NCBI GenBank assembly: GCA_002841455.1
Contig: PGZT01000002.1
Coordinates: forward strand, 1-49,871
Length of the DNA: 49,871 bases
From: Firmicutes bacterium HGW-Firmicutes-21
Lineage (GTDB): Bacteria > Bacillota > Clostridia > Oscillospirales > CAG-382
Direction of reading: 5' to 3'
Position 1 is the stretch's first letter, and every line of letters begins with the position of its first letter. Of the stretch, positions 4,556-38,154 are shown in pieces. The notes beneath the pieces are model-generated. The model saw nothing but the letters and a program-made list of their open reading frames with translations, did no database searches and was not told the DNA's origin. Made by a program: the position numbers and the translations under genes.

Positions 4556-7500
4556 TTATGCGAATATATTAAAGCTGCCAAGGAAGTGGCGTTTTATCTT
4601 TAAATAATCCTTAGTGGTGGGGATTGAGGTATTCTCAAGGCAGCATGCCTTTAATTGAAGCGGGGTAAGGGTGAGAGTTCCCAAAAAGCCCCTCTTTGTA
4701 AATAGGTAGTCCGCCGAGTTGATTATTCCGTCTCCGTTAGCATCGCCAAAAACAACAACGGTTATTTCGTCGAGAATATCTTCACCCTGCATATACATAA
4801 CCTTACAACCGGTTCCGATATAAGCACTTGGAGAGGTTATTTTAGTACCGTTTTTGTCGAGAACAATAATGTTTTCCGACAATTCAAAATTTCCGAGCAG
4901 GGTTGAAAGGTTCGTTTTATCGGTAACGCCCGTCAGATAATCACCTATAACATAATCAGACGAGGATGTAAGCTCAAGCCCGCCCTCAAAACCGAGAATA
5001 ACGGTTATGGGCTGAGTATATACCACATAGGTGCTGCCTGCCGCTGTCGAGGTTGTGTAACCGAGCATAAAGCTTGCTCTTCCCGATGATGCGGTTGCGG
5101 TTACAGTACCGTTGTTGACCGTAATAAGGTTTTCGCCCTCAAGAACCTTGATAAAGGTCTTGGAGTCGGAGGTGATATTGGTTTCCGTGTCTCCGTAAGT
5201 AATCGAGGATAGATTGTAGCTGCCTGTTGAGCCGTTACCGGCAAGCAGTATTGTGTTTTTATCGGTATAAATGTTCTTAACCATATTCTTTGCGTACTGA
5301 GCATCGTCGGTGGTAAGACCATCCAGTCCTAACAGGTAGTGAGAATTGAAAACCGAGGGCCATGCATTTGAATAGGTCCAGGGCCAAATTGTAATGCCTC
5401 TGTCTCCTGCGACTTTTGCGAAGAATCTGTTCTGGTTGCCCGCGTTAACATTAAGAGTTGAGCTTACGGGTTGTATGAATGAAAGCTGCTTTGTCATCGC
5501 AACAAGCGCTTCCGTTATACTTGAAGTCTGGTCGATTGCGTTAAGTAAATATCCGGTGGACATGGTGGGAAGGAGCTGCTTTGTTTTTATAAGCTGATTC
5601 CCGTCAAAGCAAATGACCGTTACACGGCTCTCCATATCATATTGCTTTATTAAATTAACCATTGGTTGAACGATATTAGGATCGTTTGTTTTTATCTCAA
5701 CAAATATCTTTGCGTTTGTCGGCTTTACCGCAATAAACATTTCCTCAAGAGTGGGTATTTTCTCGTTCGGATATTGATTCTTGAACATATCGTTGGGGCC
5801 CCAAAGATTAAATTGCTTGAGCTGATCAAGAGTCATAGCTGTTACATCGCCGGTGCCGGTGGTGGTCCTGTCGATTGTACCGTCATGCATTATAACAACT
5901 TTTCCGTCCTTTGTGAGCTTGATATCGGTCTCAACAACATCCGCACCGTTCTCGATAGCTTTAAGATAGCCCGAAATGGAGTTCTCCGGAGCCTGAGAGG
6001 GATTACCTCTGTGACCGATAATAATAGGTGTTCTTGTCATTGAATTAGCCACGAACATAGTCGTTAGCGCTGTTTCCACCACAGTAAAATTATTTGTTAT
6101 AATTCCGTTTGCGCCGCTGGTTATAAGTTTTGCGATTGAGGCATTACCTGTAAGCTTATCATCCATAACCCATACGGTAACTGCGTTGAGCTGAAGTTCT
6201 TGAACATAGCTCTTAACCGCAAACTTTGCAGGCAGAATCGCAATGAGTGATAACGACTTATTAACATCGCCGCGTATCTCAAGAAGCTGTTCGTCGGAAA
6301 GAGTAGCTCCGTTAATTCCCGAAAAATCCACGGCTCCGCGGACAACGGAATAGTTTTGTCTCGCGTACTTAACTATATCCGGGTTTGTGCTTATAAATAG
6401 TGCATCCTTAATCAAAGCCGCCTTTAGAGCCAAAATAATGGTGTTTACCGTGGCGGTATCGTTAACATAAAACGCAGGAATAAATATATCCTCGCTCAGG
6501 TCGTTAATAAGGGTGCTCAGGCTGCATACCGCATCTCCGTTCTTGTTTGTAAGATTGCTTCCGTTCGCATAAAAGATAACGGTAGCGGGAGCTTTGGAGG
6601 CTTTACTAATAAAATTATTATATTGTGAGGCGGATTCAATCACACCTATGTTTGTAACATGGTTTAAGGTGTTGGATTCAGGCTGTCTTACATTATACAG
6701 CTCGACGGGAGCTTCGGGTGGAGGCACCGGAGCGGACTCCTGTATGGTAACCTTAATGGAATCCACGACAAAGTTGGAGGAGTTTGCCTGTAAACCGATT
6801 CCGCCTTTATTGCTCGGATTAATTGAAGGCAGGTTGTCAAGGTGTATAACCGTGTCACCGTTTACCTGATACTGCAATACACTGTTTTTTGCAAGGATAG
6901 AAAATGTATAATTTTTGGAAGCGTTAACGGCTTCTGTATAGCTCGCTGATTTATAGTAATTCCAGCTGCCGTTAAACGATACGCATTCGATACCGCCGGT
7001 AGTTGCGGTAGCTCCCGCCATCATATTATTGCGAACGCACATATGATAATAAGGAGTTCCGGTGGTAGCGGAATTCTGAGCGCGGAATATCATTGAGAAC
7101 CATCTTGACGAATCGGTCGGATTGGTCTGTGTTCCAACCGTATCGATTCTGTAGTTTCCGAAATCGGAGAGCCAGGACGGCAGGTAAATACGAGGGTTAC
7201 CCGCACTTAAACCGCTTATTGTGAGCTTTCCTCCGCTAACCGTATAAACTCCAGCGGTGGTAACTATTTTATTCCAGTCATCAATAGCGGAAGCACTGCT
7301 GAAATCGTTGTAGTAAAGCACATACTCACTTTCGGTAGAGAGCTTTGCGACAACATAGATGTTTTTTGTAATGGCATTGTTCGAGGTCTTTTTAGCGGTA
7401 AGTACCGTAACTCCCTTGCTCGATGGGTTAAAGGAGGTTATTACATTAGCTCCGTTATACCATGTGATGTCCGAAGGGGATAAAACCGTTGCATCGTCAA

Positions 7501-7675
7501 GCTGAACACTGTAATTTGAAAGTGTTACGGCAGTGCCTACGGTTGCCAAAATTGCCGGTTCCACATTGCTTATCGGGGTAACGGCGGCTTCGACAACAGA
7601 AGCGGGGAATACTCCGCCGAGCGTTACGAGCATACATATTACCATCAGCAATGCAATTCTTTTTGTTTTTTGCAT
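4556..7675 (-). CDS. secreted glycerophosphodiester phosphodiesterase with dockerin-like tail
   Basis: This is a 1039-residue secreted protein. Residues 1-31 are a signal peptide. About 118-312 is a concanavalin/LamG-like beta-sandwich that starts YYNDFSS. About 325-545 looks like a decayed GDPD-type barrel with no catalytic residues. Residues 551-797 are a complete GDPD domain: HRGN at 555-558, PEN at 563-565, the metal pair E582 and D584, HDG at 597-599 and E660. Family knowledge says such enzymes hydrolyse glycerophosphodiesters, or teichoic or lipoteichoic polymers in secreted forms. Two beta modules follow, then a 65-residue dockerin-like module (975-1039) with an intact first calcium loop and a degenerate second one. 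AAAGGA precedes the ATG. murQ lies 30 bp upstream, so the two may be co-transcribed, linking wall turnover with amino-sugar recovery. Substrate is not deducible. Confidence 0.9.
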   Translation of the reverse strand: MQKTKRIALLMVICMLVTLGGVFPASVVEAAVTPISNVEPAILATVGTAVTLSNYSVQLDDATVLSPSDITWYNGANVITSFNPSSKGVTVLTAKKTSNNAITKNIYVVAKLSTESEYVLYYNDFSSASAIDDWNKIVTTAGVYTVSGGKLTISGLSAGNPRIYLPSWLSDFGNYRIDTVGTQTNPTDSSRWFSMIFRAQNSATTGTPYYHMCVRNNMMAGATATTGGIECVSFNGSWNYYKSASYTEAVNASKNYTFSILAKNSVLQYQVNGDTVIHLDNLPSINPSNKGGIGLQANSSNFVVDSIKVTIQESAPVPPPEAPVELYNVRQPESNTLNHVTNIGVIESASQYNNFISKASKAPATVIFYANGSNLTNKNGDAVCSLSTLINDLSEDIFIPAFYVNDTATVNTIILALKAALIKDALFISTNPDIVKYARQNYSVVRGAVDFSGINGATLSDEQLLEIRGDVNKSLSLIAILPAKFAVKSYVQELQLNAVTVWVMDDKLTGNASIAKLITSGANGIITNNFTVVETALTTMFVANSMTRTPIIIGHRGNPSQAPENSISGYLKAIENGADVVETDIKLTKDGKVVIMHDGTIDRTTTGTGDVTAMTLDQLKQFNLWGPNDMFKNQYPNEKIPTLEEMFIAVKPTNAKIFVEIKTNDPNIVQPMVNLIKQYDMESRVTVICFDGNQLIKTKQLLPTMSTGYLLNAIDQTSSITEALVAMTKQLSFIQPVSSTLNVNAGNQNRFFAKVAGDRGITIWPWTYSNAWPSVFNSHYLLGLDGLTTDDAQYAKNMVKNIYTDKNTILLAGNGSTGSYNLSSITYGDTETNITSDSKTFIKVLEGENLITVNNGTVTATASSGRASFMLGYTTSTAAGSTYVVYTQPITVILGFEGGLELTSSSDYVIGDYLTGVTDKTNLSTLLGNFELSENIIVLDKNGTKITSPSAYIGTGCKVMYMQGEDILDEITVVVFGDANGDGIINSADYLFTKRGFLGTLTLTPLQLKACCLENTSIPTTKDYLKIKRHFLGSFNIFA

Positions 7676-24334: not shown

Positions 24335-26413
24335 TTAATCGTATAAATTATATGTTCCTAAAAAATGCCTCTTAATTTTTAAGTAATCTTTTGCGGTGGG
24401 AAGTGCAGTTCCCTCCATACAGCAAGCTCTCAATTGTACTTCCGATAATGTGTATGTGTTTAGGAAGGTTCTCTTTGTGAGCAGGTAATCTTTTGCAGAA
24501 ACCATACCGTCTCCATCGATATCGCCGTAAACAATAACCTTTAACGAATGCTTTACCGTACTGCCGTCATAAAGTTTTACACTCATGCCGGTACCGATTA
24601 TAACGTCATCCTTAACCTCTGCCAAACCGTTAAAAATCTTTATATGTGCATTCCCATAAATATCTGATAAAAACCGCATAACGGAAGTATTATCTGCCAC
24701 ATTGCCGATATATCCGCTTACATCATCAATTATATATTTTCGTGACGCAATTTTATCGGGTATCGAAAAATATGTCTTCTTGATAAATCGGTATGTCAGA
24801 TCATACGCTTCTCTTGTGCGGGGATTATATGAATAGGCACACTGGTAAAAAACTCCGGGACCTCCGCCTTGATAATACATAGTAAGACCTTTTTTTGTTA
24901 TACCGTTAATATAAGCGGTGTGTAAATATGTATTATATCGGTTAAAACCTTCCTCGTTGCCGTTAAGGTTGCCGTCCGTCTCCACTTCCATACCGAGTCC
25001 GTATTTTTTTGCCTGTGTAAGAGAATCATTAACAACACCCGGTAGCTTCTCGCCAACTACCTCGCTGCCCTGCCCAATAAAGGCATACCCGCTCTGCAAG
25101 GTCGCCGCATCAAAACCAAGTTCTCTCCATGTCTCAAACCCCGGTGCGCAATAATAGGGTATCCATATTGAAGATAATCCCTTTGTATGCACATAATCGT
25201 TATATGCTTTTATGAGGTTATCCTCGTGTTCCGAAATATGGTACGGAACAAGCTCGTGATGCCAATACATACCATTTAATTGAATGTTTTTGAAACCTGC
25301 GGCATTAAAGGATGAAATGATGCTATCCACAAACCATTTTACTATTTTCACCCTGTTCTCAAGGTTTGAGGGAGTAATCGTTTTGCCGTCAATATCACCG
25401 AACACCACATTATCTGACAATTCAATATAAGGAACAGAGATATATATCGGATATTTATAATCCGAACCAAGCGTAAATTGCTCCTTGTAATCGCCCACAA
25501 GTTTGTTTAGAGCGGTTATATTTACATTGTCAGCTGTACCGATTATGCTGTCCAAATATATCTGCCAGCCTGTTTTTTTGCTAAAAGAAAAAATATTTGC
25601 ACTGCTGCTTCCCGGATTAAGCGGCAGGAATAGCATTCCGTCGAATAAAGTATCAACAGGTTGCCCATTCGTATTTATGTAAGCAAAATAAGGAAGAAGA
25701 CTATTATATGAGTTCATTCCAATATTAGAAAATTGTCCTCTGTTATATCTGCCGCTGTACATAAGCAGTATATTTTCCAATCCGTCTATATCCGAACAAA
25801 AAGCATTTGGATATTCTGTCGGTTTATCGACGGTAGCGTTTATTCCTACACTCGAATCGGTAGTCCCGAACACCTCTATTTCATCAACGAACCCCCATAC
25901 ATCATTTGAAAAAATCAAGCGCACATAACGGGCTTTGTAGTATTTATCAAACGAAACAGCGTGTTTTATTTTCGTGTTGTCATTTAGTGTTATTGATTTT
26001 TCGTCACACCTGCTGCCTACGGTCCCGAATTTTTTACCATCCACAGAAACAGCGACATGAACATATCTCGCACAAAACACTCCCTCGCTCTTTGCTTGCA
26101 ATTGCTCAAGGCTTACGCTTTTAACAGCACATACAATACCCAAATCAATTGTTACGGTTAAGGCAGTTCCTCTGTAAAGAACGAGCCATCGGTCATCTTC
26201 AATATTGTTTTCCTTAGCTTTTATGCCATCTGTGAGCTTTTTATCCTCGTCCTTATGAACTAGATTCGGGAAACCGTTTTCAATAGGACTGTCGTATTCA
26301 ATTGAATAGTTCTTTTTATAAGCTAAATTTATATCACTATAAGCGGATACAAGAGCTGTCGACAGCTGTAAAATAAATATAAGCAGTATAACTAAGCAGA
26401 TTATCTTTTTCAT
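24335..26413 (-). CDS. secreted DUF4855 protein with F5/8-type carbohydrate-binding domain and dockerin-like tail
   Basis: This is a 692-residue secreted protein with a signal peptide of about 24 residues. Residues 27-187 resemble an F5/8 type C (discoidin) carbohydrate-binding module (KKLTDGI, VTIDLGIVCAVKSV, ARYVRLIFSN). Residues 210-560 match DUF4855, a TIM-barrel-like domain of probable glycan-active proteins (NILLMYSGRYNRGQF, WHHELVPYH, ATLQSGYAF, GLGMEVETDGN). It ends with an IGTG beta module and a 65-residue dockerin-like unit (628-692), 60% identical by my count to that of the GDPD protein, with the same degenerate second loop. AAAGGA precedes the ATG. The role inferred is polysaccharide binding or cleavage at the surface or in a complex. 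Confidence 0.87.
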   Translation of the reverse strand: MKKIICLVILLIFILQLSTALVSAYSDINLAYKKNYSIEYDSPIENGFPNLVHKDEDKKLTDGIKAKENNIEDDRWLVLYRGTALTVTIDLGIVCAVKSVSLEQLQAKSEGVFCARYVHVAVSVDGKKFGTVGSRCDEKSITLNDNTKIKHAVSFDKYYKARYVRLIFSNDVWGFVDEIEVFGTTDSSVGINATVDKPTEYPNAFCSDIDGLENILLMYSGRYNRGQFSNIGMNSYNSLLPYFAYINTNGQPVDTLFDGMLFLPLNPGSSSANIFSFSKKTGWQIYLDSIIGTADNVNITALNKLVGDYKEQFTLGSDYKYPIYISVPYIELSDNVVFGDIDGKTITPSNLENRVKIVKWFVDSIISSFNAAGFKNIQLNGMYWHHELVPYHISEHEDNLIKAYNDYVHTKGLSSIWIPYYCAPGFETWRELGFDAATLQSGYAFIGQGSEVVGEKLPGVVNDSLTQAKKYGLGMEVETDGNLNGNEEGFNRYNTYLHTAYINGITKKGLTMYYQGGGPGVFYQCAYSYNPRTREAYDLTYRFIKKTYFSIPDKIASRKYIIDDVSGYIGNVADNTSVMRFLSDIYGNAHIKIFNGLAEVKDDVIIGTGMSVKLYDGSTVKHSLKVIVYGDIDGDGMVSAKDYLLTKRTFLNTYTLSEVQLRACCMEGTALPTAKDYLKIKRHFLGTYNLYD

Positions 26414-26966: not shown

Positions 26967-28700
26967 TTATTTCTTCTTTTTGATTACAAAATAATATATT
27001 CCAGACCCTGATAAAAGCACAATGATTACTATTACAATAATCAATAGAGCATTGCTTCCATTATCCTTTTCGTTGTCTTCGGTTAAATCGTCAGAGTTCT
27101 CTGTCGTAACAATATTGCTTGTTTGATCGCTTATATCAATATCGGATTCAATATCTTCGGTACTTGAAGCATCTTCGGTACTTGAAGTATCTTCTGTACT
27201 TGAAGCATCTTCAGTGCTTGAAGCATGATCAGCGGCGGAAACATCTGCTGATGTTGTTATTATAATTATAGAGGAAGGATCATCCGTTATATCAATACTC
27301 GAGGAATCCGGATTTTTTATAATTTCGATTGTTTTTATCGGCTCGAATTTATCTGCAATATCAAATATTCGAATTTTGCTTTTATCAAAACGGGTTTCAT
27401 GAGCGAAAATTCTAAAGCTGCCGTTGTTGAGCTGCTCAAACTGTGATATACCGGAATATGTACCTATTAAATCCTCAGACTCGATTTTATATAAATGTTT
27501 TAAATTAGCACTTGAATCGACTCTGTAAATATAAGCGGTATTATTTTTAATATCAATTTTTGCTTTAGAGATATAATCTATGAAATAATCAGAGAACTCG
27601 GGCAGGAACTGTATCAACACATCCCCGTTTTCAAGCGGTGCCAATACTCGCAATATATTAGTTAAGCCCATAATTTCGCCCGGCAAGATGATAACATTTT
27701 TACATTCACCGTCTGGTCGGAATGCCGCTATAAGGCATCCGTCACTGTTATAACCGCTAAAATCAAATTTTATTTTACCGAAAGCACCGGCACCGGTGCA
27801 TCTGTAATACCTTGCCATTATTATAATAGATCCGTCTGATGATATTACCATATCATCAAAAGAAATATCGCCGTTTACGAAGAATGTTTTTGAAAAAACC
27901 ACATCTCCGTTTTTATCAAGTTTGCTAATATATCCGTCGGATAAATTATCTGTTAAGTTAATACCGCAGATAAAAGTATCGCCATTATCGGTTATTTTTA
28001 TATGACTCAAAACATCATAATCCGAATGATAAGCAGCGATAACAAAATCGTCCTTAAACAATGCATCACCGTTTTTATCCAATTTCATTATGTAAGGAAT
28101 CGAGTTATTGTTTTTAATACTAGATCCGATTCCTAATATTTCACCCTTATCATTTTCATATACATGCCCAATATGATGAATTTTATATTTGCTGCAATCC
28201 TTTGCCCAAATAACATTACCGTCGCTGTCGTATTTAATAATAATAGCCGCCCTGCTGCCAATAACACCGGTCATATTATACTTATCAAAATCCCCGCCGG
28301 AGTTACTGTTTGAATAACCTGTCGCAACAAATCCGCCGTCCTTTGTCGGAAACGCATTATTAAAACGGTCGGTGCCATTGCCGCCGAAGGTTTTTAAAAA
28401 GGCAATACCGCCGTTTGAATTGTATTTGAATACAAGCGCTGTATTGTCTTTATCTCCCGTTGTTCGCTGCTCCATATAACTCAGTCTGCTGTTTCTGTCG
28501 CCGGTTGAACCGACTCCGACTATCGAACCGTCCTTTAAAACAATTGTTTTAAGTATTTCCCCATTAATGGCATCGCTCTCAAAACTCATAACGGTCCGTA
28601 TTGATTGTATACCGGTATCTTTTCCGCTGCCGGAAGCAAACAATGGTAATATAAGGCACAAGCAAATAGTAATGATTATGGCGAACAGTTTCTTTTTCAT
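26967..28700 (-). CDS. membrane-anchored extracellular repeat protein, beta-propeller-like
   Basis: This is a 577-residue protein. A signal peptide (about 1-23) precedes some 420 residues of repeats of 45-50 residues with the pattern hydrophobic strand - G - K/T-x-G-G-F - A-T-G-Y and blocks such as FKYNSNGGIAFLKTFGG, IIKYDSDGNVIWAKD, MKLDKNGDALF and SKLDKNGDVVFSKTF. This is the look of SBBP/PQQ-like propeller blades that bind ligands or surfaces. A linker of repeated ASSTED units (about 485-520) leads to a C-terminal membrane helix and a KKKK tail, so the protein is anchored at both the C-terminal membrane segment and the exported side. GGGAGGG precedes the ATG. No enzyme motif seen; an adhesion or sensing role is inferred. 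Confidence 0.8.
   Translation of the reverse strand: MKKKLFAIIITICLCLILPLFASGSGKDTGIQSIRTVMSFESDAINGEILKTIVLKDGSIVGVGSTGDRNSRLSYMEQRTTGDKDNTALVFKYNSNGGIAFLKTFGGNGTDRFNNAFPTKDGGFVATGYSNSNSGGDFDKYNMTGVIGSRAAIIIKYDSDGNVIWAKDCSKYKIHHIGHVYENDKGEILGIGSSIKNNNSIPYIMKLDKNGDALFKDDFVIAAYHSDYDVLSHIKITDNGDTFICGINLTDNLSDGYISKLDKNGDVVFSKTFFVNGDISFDDMVISSDGSIIIMARYYRCTGAGAFGKIKFDFSGYNSDGCLIAAFRPDGECKNVIILPGEIMGLTNILRVLAPLENGDVLIQFLPEFSDYFIDYISKAKIDIKNNTAYIYRVDSSANLKHLYKIESEDLIGTYSGISQFEQLNNGSFRIFAHETRFDKSKIRIFDIADKFEPIKTIEIIKNPDSSSIDITDDPSSIIIITTSADVSAADHASSTEDASSTEDTSSTEDASSTEDIESDIDISDQTSNIVTTENSDDLTEDNEKDNGSNALLIIVIVIIVLLSGSGIYYFVIKKKK
27153..27224 (-). repeat. four 18-bp tandem repeats in the Ser/Thr/Asp linker
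   Basis: Four consecutive 18-bp units close to atcttcggtacttgaagc (27153-27170, 27171-27188, 27189-27206, 27207-27224) encode the hexapeptide ASSTED or TSSTED. Only a few bases differ between units, implying recent expansion and possible length variation between strains. Confidence 0.85.
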
Positions 28701-35592: not shown

Positions 35593-38154
35593 ATGAAATT
35601 AAAGCGTTTTATAAGCTTCATGACCGCAATAATTATTCTCGCTATGCTTATGTCGTCATCGGTACCTTCTTTGGTAAACGCAGAGGTTATTAAGACTACT
35701 GTATTGAACGGCATAAACGCAGAGCGGAAGCTTAATTATTTAATCGCATACACAGACGAGTACGGTTCAAAAACCACGGGAACCGACGATAAGGGTATCG
35801 AGGCTGTAGTGAACAGCAAAGGAATCGTAACCGCAATAGGCGGAAACAACAACGATATTCCGAAAGGCGGCTTTGTTCTTTCGGGCTCCAGCACGAAGAA
35901 GACCTTGATCGAGAAAAATATAAAGGTCGGATATGCGATATATCTTGATAAGGAAGCCCTTTCAGTAACAATAATAGCGGATGACTATAATCCCTTTTAT
36001 TCCTCCACCATAGAGTATTCGGCTATAAACTCGATCCGTTCTGAAAATACCTTGATTATATATAACGGTAAGGACGGCAAAAAGTCCTCCTTGACAAACG
36101 AATGGGGTTTTGAGGTCGTAGTGGACAAGGACGGCTATATAATCTCGGTTGGCGGAAATAATAACACAATTCCCGAGGACGGGCTGGTTCTGAGCGCGGT
36201 CGGCACAAAGAAAGCGGTTTTTATGGAAATGGCTAAAATCGGCTTGTCGGTTGACATTGATACCGCCGATAAAATTATTACCCTTTCATACAGCAAGGAC
36301 AACGCAATACAAGCATCCCGACTTATACTCGAGGGTTGGAAGGATGCCTTTGCGGCGGCAAAGGCGGCTTATAAAAACATTAATCATAGTGCTATAGAGA
36401 ATTCGCTCACCAAACTTGAGAGCGAGCTTGGCAATATAGAAACGGGCATTGCGGATGATGATATGCTCGTTTATACGGTTGCACAAAACAGATTTGACGC
36501 AATCAGCAACACAATAAAGAGTCTGCTTATTGAATATCCTGCGGTGGAGGGCAGAGCGTTATGGATAAGACCTACGCAGAAGAATGATGCGGAGGTCAAA
36601 AAGGTTATTGAGGAGATTTATAATTTAGGCTTTAATATTGTGTGTATCGAGGGACTTTATAACAATACCATGATTATGCCGCAGCCGGAGTTCAGCCATT
36701 TCTCTCATAGCCCTTACTTTGGCGGCTATGATGTTTTAAAAGCTTATATAGAAGAATGTCATAAATACGGGATGGAGCTACATTTATGGATGCCCGTTTA
36801 CCGAGTCGGACATGATGCAAGCACCTATCCCAGCCTCGGGCTCGGAAATGTAAAACGGGAGTGGCGCAATATTACAAACACCGGAGTGGATTATGCCGCT
36901 AATGCATACGGCAACGGGCATTTCCTAAATCCCGCATTACCCGAGGTCAGCGAGTATCTTCTCTCCGTTTATAAATATATTTTGGAGAATTATTCGATAG
37001 ACGGCTTCCAGCTTGATTATATCCGTTATCCCGACAGAGTTGACGGAGTGGATTTTGGCTATGACGATTACACATTGGGACTGTTTGAGGAGGAATACGG
37101 CTATAACCCTAAGGACATAACCACAACACATTCACTCTGGAATACATGGTGTCAGTTCAGAGCTAAGTTTGTTACCGATTTTGTTCTTGATGTTAAGGCG
37201 CTTGTGGAGGATATCCGCCCGGATGTATATTTATCCGCCGATGTGGCTCCCTCCTTTAATGAGTCTCTGACCAGAATGATGCAGGACACTGTAAAATGGA
37301 TTAGCGAGGCTTATATAAGCATTGTCTACCCTATGGCGTACGGAACGGTAGACAGGGTGAGTACCTGGTCGAATACAACGGTACAGCTCGCTGGTGATAA
37401 TGTATTCACTTATATCGGAGTCGGAAATTACGGAGCCGATACCTTCTTTGAGCAAATGGTTGCCATACGGAATAACGGTGCGGACGGAGTCGCATTCTTT
37501 GCTTATGCGGAGTTTACCTCCGGTGAGTATGATATTATACCGGAGACTATGTTCTCAAAAAGAGCTGCTTCTCCTACCTATAACGGAAAAAAAGCACTCA
37601 TAGCACAGTTGAAATATACCAAAGAACGGATTATAAGCATTATAGAACCGTCGGGAATAAGCGGCTCTGCCGAGCTTTCCGCTCTCTGCGCCGATATTGA
37701 TGCGTTGATAGCAAGGCTTGACGACTCTAATATAACAGAATGTAAAAGTGATATTATTAAGTTGGTAGACGATTTTAAAGCGGTATTAAGCGGCAAGGTA
37801 ACGGACGAGAAAGCCGTATCGGCAGTATCCGGCGACCTGAGAATTATCTCTAAAATAACCGCTCTCTCAAAGGACGATGAAAAAGCGGCATATTATATTG
37901 ATAATCCTCTGCCCGATATGTACGATTTGTCGGACGACGAGGATAATAACACAGCGGATAATTCCGAAACGGATGACGACGGAATTGCTCTGACCACCTT
38001 TGAAAAAATCATCAGGGGAATTTCTATGGGCATTGTTTCGTTTTCTATATTAGGTCTTCCTCTTTATTTCTATCTTGACTACAGAAAAAAGAAGATAATT
38101 GCAGCGAGCAAGGACAAAGACAAGCAGGATGAAAATGACGATATAGGCGAATAA
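35593..38154 (+). CDS. secreted, membrane-anchored GHL10 glycoside hydrolase-like protein
   Basis: This is an 853-residue protein. A signal peptide ends near residue 30. Residues 68-122 and 172-224 are two copies of a module of about 55 residues (G-x-E-x-VV-x-x-x-G-x-I-x-x-x-GGNNN-x-IP-x-x-G), a repeat often found before GHL10 or NAGPA-type domains. From about 319 (GRALWIRPTQ) to 640 there is the GHL10 (DUF187) barrel, with DGFQLDYIRYP, ISIVYPMAYG and GADGVAFFAYAEF strands. A helical region, an acidic linker, one membrane helix (about 808-830) and a charged cytoplasmic tail follow. GHL10 proteins are predicted glycoside hydrolases acting on the wall or surface glycans. GGAG precedes the ATG. 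Confidence 0.9.
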   Translation: MKLKRFISFMTAIIILAMLMSSSVPSLVNAEVIKTTVLNGINAERKLNYLIAYTDEYGSKTTGTDDKGIEAVVNSKGIVTAIGGNNNDIPKGGFVLSGSSTKKTLIEKNIKVGYAIYLDKEALSVTIIADDYNPFYSSTIEYSAINSIRSENTLIIYNGKDGKKSSLTNEWGFEVVVDKDGYIISVGGNNNTIPEDGLVLSAVGTKKAVFMEMAKIGLSVDIDTADKIITLSYSKDNAIQASRLILEGWKDAFAAAKAAYKNINHSAIENSLTKLESELGNIETGIADDDMLVYTVAQNRFDAISNTIKSLLIEYPAVEGRALWIRPTQKNDAEVKKVIEEIYNLGFNIVCIEGLYNNTMIMPQPEFSHFSHSPYFGGYDVLKAYIEECHKYGMELHLWMPVYRVGHDASTYPSLGLGNVKREWRNITNTGVDYAANAYGNGHFLNPALPEVSEYLLSVYKYILENYSIDGFQLDYIRYPDRVDGVDFGYDDYTLGLFEEEYGYNPKDITTTHSLWNTWCQFRAKFVTDFVLDVKALVEDIRPDVYLSADVAPSFNESLTRMMQDTVKWISEAYISIVYPMAYGTVDRVSTWSNTTVQLAGDNVFTYIGVGNYGADTFFEQMVAIRNNGADGVAFFAYAEFTSGEYDIIPETMFSKRAASPTYNGKKALIAQLKYTKERIISIIEPSGISGSAELSALCADIDALIARLDDSNITECKSDIIKLVDDFKAVLSGKVTDEKAVSAVSGDLRIISKITALSKDDEKAAYYIDNPLPDMYDLSDDEDNNTADNSETDDDGIALTTFEKIIRGISMGIVSFSILGLPLYFYLDYRKKKIIAASKDKDKQDENDDIGE

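Follow-up and report, generated by a model that had tools for sequence, protein, structure and literature searches.

A beta-rich companion module and dockerins with an altered second calcium loop in a genome of the Clostridia

Introduction

Dockerins are recognised by their calcium loops, and each F-hand loop of a dockerin binds a calcium that holds the following helix. In the contig PGZT01000002.1 of Firmicutes bacterium HGW-Firmicutes-21 (Clostridia, Oscillospirales, family CAG-382), two proteins end in a dockerin-like tail whose second loop is altered in the same way. The stretch considered here, which we call the window, comprises 49,871 nucleotides (positions 1 to 49,871 of the forward strand of that contig). 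The locus raises the question of what would hold the second half of such a dockerin, and whether the change of the loop is accompanied by any other feature of the proteins that carry it. A first-pass annotation, made from the sequence, had read the tail as conserved, and perhaps as a single-calcium, disulphide-stabilised docking or anchoring module.

Results

Two proteins of the window end in the same two-part unit

The DUF4855 protein (692 amino acids; 24335..26413, minus strand; PF16147, E 3.8e-85) opens with a segment that resembles a signal peptide by eye, followed by an F5/8 type C-like domain (residues 73-170; 25904..26197, minus strand), which at 26.7 bits lies below the Pfam cut-off of 28.2, and by the DUF4855 domain matched by its Pfam profile (residues 214-542; 24788..25774, minus strand). 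Its tail is the in-frame C-terminus of this open reading frame. The GDPD protein (1039 amino acids; 4556..7675, minus strand; PF03009, E 4.4e-38) bears the first copy of the tail. Over their final 65 residues the two proteins align without gaps and with 39 identical positions, which reproduces the earlier hand count and lies above chance, since identities averaged 4.5 and never exceeded 13 when one tail was shuffled 2000 times.

The rest of the two proteins had been described as unrelated, and this did not hold. With BLASTP the match grows to 136 residues, of which 42% are identical (E 4e-31), between residues 556-691 of the DUF4855 protein and 904-1038 of the GDPD protein; the boundaries first drawn were too short, the unit having about 75 residues more and being about twice as long. 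We call the additional part the GTG module after its most conserved letters, of which the T and the G are invariant in 27 of 27 aligned rows. A profile holding no row from the window detects it in the DUF4855 protein (24527..24757, minus strand; i-E 3.5e-9), where it has about 75 amino acids and is beta-rich in the AlphaFold2 (AF2) model, and in the GDPD protein (4748..4960, minus strand; i-E 7.8e-16); no third open reading frame of the window matches it below E 0.8. Directly behind the module lies the dockerin with the altered second loop, identified in the DUF4855 protein by profile, AF2 model and structure matches (63 amino acids; 24338..24526, minus strand) and in the GDPD protein by sequence comparison (4559..4747, minus strand). 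The unit is a beta-rich GTG module of about 75 residues directly before a dockerin, with the boundaries given here. Elsewhere in the window, the translation of the reading frame at 26967-28700 (minus strand) contains a short (A/T)SSTED repeat ahead of a C-terminal hydrophobic stretch.

That two genes of a single contig carry the tail invites the reading that it is a recent copy made by gene conversion and devoid of functional meaning, for which near-identical DNA had been named as the sign. The two dockerin stretches are identical at 111 of 189 nucleotides, however, with saturated synonymous sites (pS 0.93) against a pN of 0.26. We rejected recent gene conversion on these values and give it next to no weight; the divergence of the DNA and the saturation of pS indicate that the tail is a conserved protein and not a recent copy.

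The tail is predicted to fold as a dockerin

The AF2 model of the DUF4855 tail, built with 11 rows, has a pLDDT of 87.3 and a pTM of 0.81, and its ten-residue blocks from residue 81 onward score 92-97. Its helices (96-106, 114-120 and 130-141) form the two loop-helix repeats and three helices of the dockerin fold, and dockerins are its best Foldseek and VIA matches. The C-terminal part superposes on 8x39_A (VIA Z 7.5, 68 residues, 1.9 Å) and on 2ccl_B (Z 7.3, 62 residues, 1.5 Å), and the tail has a profile match to 1ohz (E 4.8e-9). The dockerin-like nature proposed for the tail was borne out by this fold and these solved structures. Against the CttA XDoc structures (4wkz, 4iu3 and 4iu2) the whole model reaches VIA Z 6.0-6.2 across 109 residues, with a superposition no closer than 5.2-5.3 Å. 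In the model, a pTM of 0.81 across two domains suggests a defined arrangement of GTG module and dockerin.

Among 27 GTG modules no Pfam or NCBIfam family was common to the set; each family that was matched had a match from a single module (E 0.005-0.1). The best match of the GTG profile to PDB sequences (E 0.043) was to unrelated molecules, and the best Foldseek E for the module alone was 0.18. We make no claim as to whether its fold is known or novel. At 1e-6 the GTG profile matches 23 of the 291 genomes of the class, own genome counted.

The second loop is altered and conserved

In the dockerin alignment, loop 1 of the DUF4855 tail (24488..24523, minus strand) is complete, with D-D-D-S-D at positions 1, 3, 5, 9 and 12, and loop 2 (24386..24421, minus strand) is altered, with C-E-T-T-D at the same positions. 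The GDPD tail likewise combines a complete loop 1 with a C-E-T-T-D loop 2. As canonical type I dockerins are defined by D/N-type ligands at positions 1, 3 and 5 and D/E at position 12 in both loops, the two window tails fall outside that class. In searches of the whole proteins they score 19.5 and 17.1 bits with PF00404, below its gathering cut-off of 22.9, and in a six-frame search 24.0 and 21.4 bits, above and below it; with hmmscan, five of ten altered dockerins of the genome lie below the cut-off.

We compared 122 unique, near-full dockerins of the family, retained from 152 matches after dropping duplicates and rows with more than 12 gaps. Position 1 of loop 1 is D in all 122, whereas 60 of them have a residue other than D or N at position 1 of loop 2. 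In these 60 altered loops, position 12 is D in 57, position 2 is V, L or I in 56, position 4 is G, D or N in 54, position 8 is P, I, V or L in 59 and position 9 is T or S in 42; the commonest residues are Cys or Ala at position 1 and S or T at position 3. Judged by these frequencies, the altered loop is an alternative loop with residue preferences of its own that replaces the second calcium loop. In both window tails the position-3 Glu of loop 2 could still have a part in calcium binding.

The helices do not follow the loop. Helix 1 and helix 3 resemble each other equally in altered and canonical dockerins (0.60 and 0.61), and in the altered set helix 3 is conserved no less than helix 1 (mean entropy 1.15 vs 1.37). 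Given this equal likeness, nothing in these sequences suggests that the altered half has lost cohesin binding. The helix asymmetry that would point to a single binding mode is not seen, their identity being equal in both classes.

The cysteines had been taken as signs of a stabilising disulphide. The Cys-Cys pair is indeed present in both window tails, which favours that form of the proposal, but it is rare elsewhere, occurring in 3 of the 60 dockerins with an altered loop 2 (3 of 66 in a larger set). Position 1 of loop 2 is a single Cys in 27 of 60, with no conserved partner Cys within the dockerin and no significant association with the Cys frequently found behind the GTG triplet (11/26 vs 17/71, p 0.13). 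A disulphide-stabilised, single-calcium module is very unlikely on these counts. The single-calcium part of the proposal, detached from the disulphide, remains reasonable, since loop 1 is intact.

Dockerins, cohesins and anchors of the genome and of a second species

The genome (1.55 Mb, 92 contigs) contains 21 Dockerin_1 places at E <= 10. Read singly, seven are canonical in both loops, 11 are without the first loop-2 ligand and three are other or mixed (two on contig 4, one on contig 6). The 11 altered dockerins are the two window tails and those on contigs 12, 21, 74 (two), 85 (two), 86, 88 and 91; all 11 have a GTG module upstream and all 11 retain the second helix region (DYLKIKRHFLG or similar). 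The seven canonical dockerins have a GTG module at contigs 39, 69 and 90 and none at contigs 33, 38, 40 and 81. The two DUF4855 proteins of the genome differ in this respect, the one in the window ending in an altered dockerin and the one on contig 39 in a canonical dockerin behind a GTG module. Counterparts in another species of this genus (G001), namely GDPD (L055), GHL10 (L057) and cohesin (L054) proteins, retain the altered loop; the earlier view that the loop is altered yet conserved is thus sustained by the 11 dockerins of the genome and by these counterparts.

The domain scan of the altered-tail carriers, contig 12 lying outside it, found GDPD, DUF4855, DUF4127, NAGPA (two), LRR_5 and GHL10 proteins, proteins with an F5/8-like domain only, and a two-cohesin protein. 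Ten dockerin proteins were scanned, and they have DUF4855, GDSL lipase, DUF4127, NAGPA, LRR, GHL10, F5/8 or cohesin domains; no cellulase family exceeded its cut-off in these ten, the scan covering contigs other than 4, 6, 12, 33, 38, 40, 69 and 81. The list of carriers, with GDPD, phosphodiester glycosidase, DUF4855, DUF4127, GHL10 and LRR proteins, suggests that docking would not be directed mainly at plant cell walls.

Cohesin places at E <= 10 are found twice on contig 74 and once on contig 10, above the cut-off, and once on contig 4, below it, which amounts to three or four cohesins. Since the genome encodes cohesins, the docking or anchoring role proposed for the tail is plausible. The cohesin protein of contig 10 has a strongly hydrophobic C-terminus (mean hydropathy 2.71 over 19 residues), and cohesin proteins of 257-408 amino acids with such a C-terminal stretch occur in four genomes (L002, which is the contig 10 protein, L094, L098 and L099); they are possible cell-surface cohesin receptors. 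On contig 74 (L021, 4856-7123, minus strand), a scaffoldin-like protein with two cohesins ends, like the enzymes, in a GTG module and an altered dockerin. Scaffoldins with the same tail as the enzymes might form chains or compete for the same cohesins.

GHL10 proteins end in two ways. The one in the window (35593-38154, plus strand) has, by eye, a hydrophobic, membrane-anchor-like C-terminus; its homologue in the second species (L057; 35% identity, 634 columns) ends in a GTG module and dockerin instead, a tail also found on the contig 74 GHL10 protein. From these three ends, membrane anchor and dockerin tail look interchangeable on GHL10 proteins, which lends an anchoring role of the tail indirect support. 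Outside these genomes, a protein that appears transglutaminase-like by eye (L060, 3746-4192) carries a GTG module and an altered dockerin; its contig was assigned to the bin Candidatus Margulisbacteria GWF2_35_9. Its best segment has 61% identity, and either transfer or mis-binning may explain it.

The GTG module precedes altered dockerins in the family

At E <= 1e-8 the A2 profile, made from the 11 altered dockerins, matches 44 of the family's 63 genomes and 7 of its 13 genera. At 1e-14 it matches 16 of 295 genomes of the order, 15 of which belong to the family. In another genus of the family (G043), position 1 of loop 2 is D in all 15 dockerins read, of 30 matches.

The family sample, which is non-exhaustive (as in G043, with 15 of 30 matches) and was gathered with a profile of altered dockerins, comprises 128 dockerins with at least 60 residues upstream, 3 of 131 being shorter and left out. 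The GTG module precedes 65 of the 65 dockerins without the first loop-2 ligand and 36 of the 63 others (score > 0), or 33 of these 63 with the stricter GTG score of >= 9, the GTG profiles containing family rows. Under a looser ligand rule, with one ambiguous row left out, loop 2 is altered in 68 of 100 dockerins with the module vs 2 of 27 without it, and both of the latter retain D at position 1. A loop 1 that departs from this rule occurs in 1 of 128. Clustering at 60% identity leaves 28 altered clusters with the module, 14 canonical clusters with it, 13 canonical clusters without it and no altered cluster without it; at 50% identity only four clusters remain, which is uninformative.

The association in other families

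Outside the family, we considered 12 genomes of eight other families, chosen because the GTG profile matches them. Their dockerins were found with the independent Pfam model PF00404, at 113 places of which 80 were taken, G541 contributing 20 of its 51 and the other eleven genomes together 60 of their 62; two of the 80 were left out as unparsed (L214 and L236, with a GTG-like stretch by eye), and then four of the remaining 78 as ambiguous. Under the looser rule, loop 2 is altered in 23 of 49 dockerins with a GTG module vs 1 of 25 without it, the sole exception being L216. Loop 1 breaks the rule in 3 of 78, one of which (L261) resembles a shifted start. When the loop states were shuffled within families (20,000 shuffles), p was 5e-5 for all families, a floor value since no shuffle reached the observed one, and 1e-4 outside the own family.

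By family, the dockerins behind a GTG module are altered under the looser rule in 13/14 (f77), 4/5 (f52), 3/8 (f80), 1/3 (f88), 1/4 (f34), 1/13 (f92), 0/1 (f40) and 0/1 (f70) of the cases. In G541, 12 of 13 such dockerins are canonical. Eleven of the 23 rule-altered loops retain D or N at position 1. Under the strict rule, by which position 1 is lost and which we applied by eye, the counts are 12 of 49 vs 1 of 25, with p 0.049 in Fisher's test and p 0.014 when shuffling within families; all 12 cases belong to two families (f77 with nine and f52 with three). In two other families, represented by G407 (L206-L223) and G465 (L226-L237), 12/12 and 4/5 of the parsed GTG-linked dockerins break the loop-2 rule, with loops mostly unlike those of the window family in sequence and length.

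By these counts, the link between GTG module and altered loop 2 is strong in the own family and repeated in two others, and it is uncorrected for descent, the dockerin tree built without loop 2 being poorly supported and yielding 1 and 2 supported independent pairs, with which the test is without power. Many canonical dockerins likewise stand behind a GTG module, so that the module may permit the loss of the second site but does not force it.

Discussion

We propose, with a probability of about 0.5, that the tail is a cohesin-binding unit in which the GTG module, similar in role to an X-module, steadies the second half of the dockerin and makes its second calcium dispensable. The dockerin would bind one calcium through loop 1. 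The GTG module would pack on it and steady its second half, in the manner of the X-modules of XDoc dyads, and once this half was steadied the second calcium could have become dispensable. The unit would hook secreted enzymes and the scaffoldin-like protein onto cohesins, and the cohesin of contig 10, with its membrane-anchor-like end, would keep the carriers at the cell surface. Considering the association of the module with the altered loop together with the X-module precedents, a GTG module doing a like job is the simplest reading. We also suggest, more tentatively, a broader rule by which the GTG module is a dockerin companion in several families of the class and replaces the second calcium structurally, so that the dockerins behind it repeatedly lose the site; such a rule, possible although we would not rely on it, predicts single-calcium dockerins.

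The same observations can be explained by plain relaxation. With a single binding mode being enough, one half of the symmetric dockerin could be dispensed with; its calcium loop would then be free to change, and the GTG module would be no more than a companion of the lineage. R. flavefaciens indeed has dockerins with a single binding mode and atypical second loops, according to the available portions of PMC5429695 and PMC5934362, and the link with the module is uncorrectable for descent and weak outside the family under the strict rule. A loop free to change is nevertheless hard to reconcile with one that has its own preferences and keeps position 12 in 57 of 60 cases, with a helix 3 conserved no less than helix 1, or with an altered set that lies entirely behind the GTG module in the family. 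We consider relaxation unlikely, although it deserves to be kept in mind.

It is less probable still that the altered loop acts as a label of specificity, setting apart a class whose cohesin partner, such as the one with the hydrophobic C-terminus, is not that of the canonical dockerins in the same genome. Both classes do occur in one genome, even on its two DUF4855 proteins, and in C. thermocellum, as described in the accessible part of PMC5301203, atypical positions 11-12 in some dockerins accompany recruitment to the cell surface. Against a label of this kind, the recognition helices are equally alike internally in both classes, and the two-cohesin protein bears the same altered class as the enzymes. 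Returning to a GTG module that steadies the dockerin, the proposal, if true, would offer a clean natural case of a domain substituting for a metal site, along with a docking pair that could be tried in designer complexes. In addition, as five of ten altered dockerins fall below the Pfam cut-off and the module matches no Pfam or NCBIfam family, annotation likely misses some of these units in uncultured Clostridia.

Comparison with known systems

In the open PMC literature, as far as its accessible text extends (including PMC4266597 and PMC5590126, and with most subscription papers outside this scope), neither the GTG module nor its link to loop 2 is described. What appears new is the companion and the way it goes with loss of the second site, dockerins with an unrecognised or atypical second repeat being already published (PMC2930009, in the part available). 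In that source, the group 2 dockerins of R. flavefaciens are those in which a second calcium repeat was unidentified. Group 2 members resemble truncated group 4 modules. In contrast, the window tails are of full length with the second helix region present, and thus do not belong to group 2. The dockerin of R. flavefaciens ScaA (group 5) has an atypical loop 2 with a 12-residue insert, keeps Asp as its first ligand and binds two calcium ions, according to the accessible sections of PMC5934362, whereas the window tails are without the insert and have the first loop-2 ligand replaced. Since ScaA binds two calcium ions despite its atypical loop, the loss of calcium in the window tails is not to be read from the sequence alone.

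The type I dockerin (PF00404; C. thermocellum XynY, 1ohz/2ccl) shares with the tail the two loop-helix repeats, a complete loop 1, KR in both helices and the fold, while the window tails differ in the ligand positions 1, 3 and 5 of loop 2 and in being preceded by the GTG module. The XDoc dyads (C. thermocellum ScaA/CipB; R. flavefaciens CttA, 4iu3/4wkz) likewise have a beta-rich module directly before the dockerin. From what is available of each source, both calcium loops of CipB are stabilised by its X-module (PMC5141474), the second-loop insert of CttA helps to buttress the X-module (PMC5934362), and in a type II complex lacking the X-module the second site lies in a mobile region (PMC8063739). 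The GTG module differs from the X-module of CipB in length, with about 75 residues vs 98, and the window model superposes on the CttA XDoc only at the 5.2-5.3 Å given above. As far as these sources go, the dockerins of CipB and CttA bind two calcium ions, whereas the window tail is predicted to bind one.
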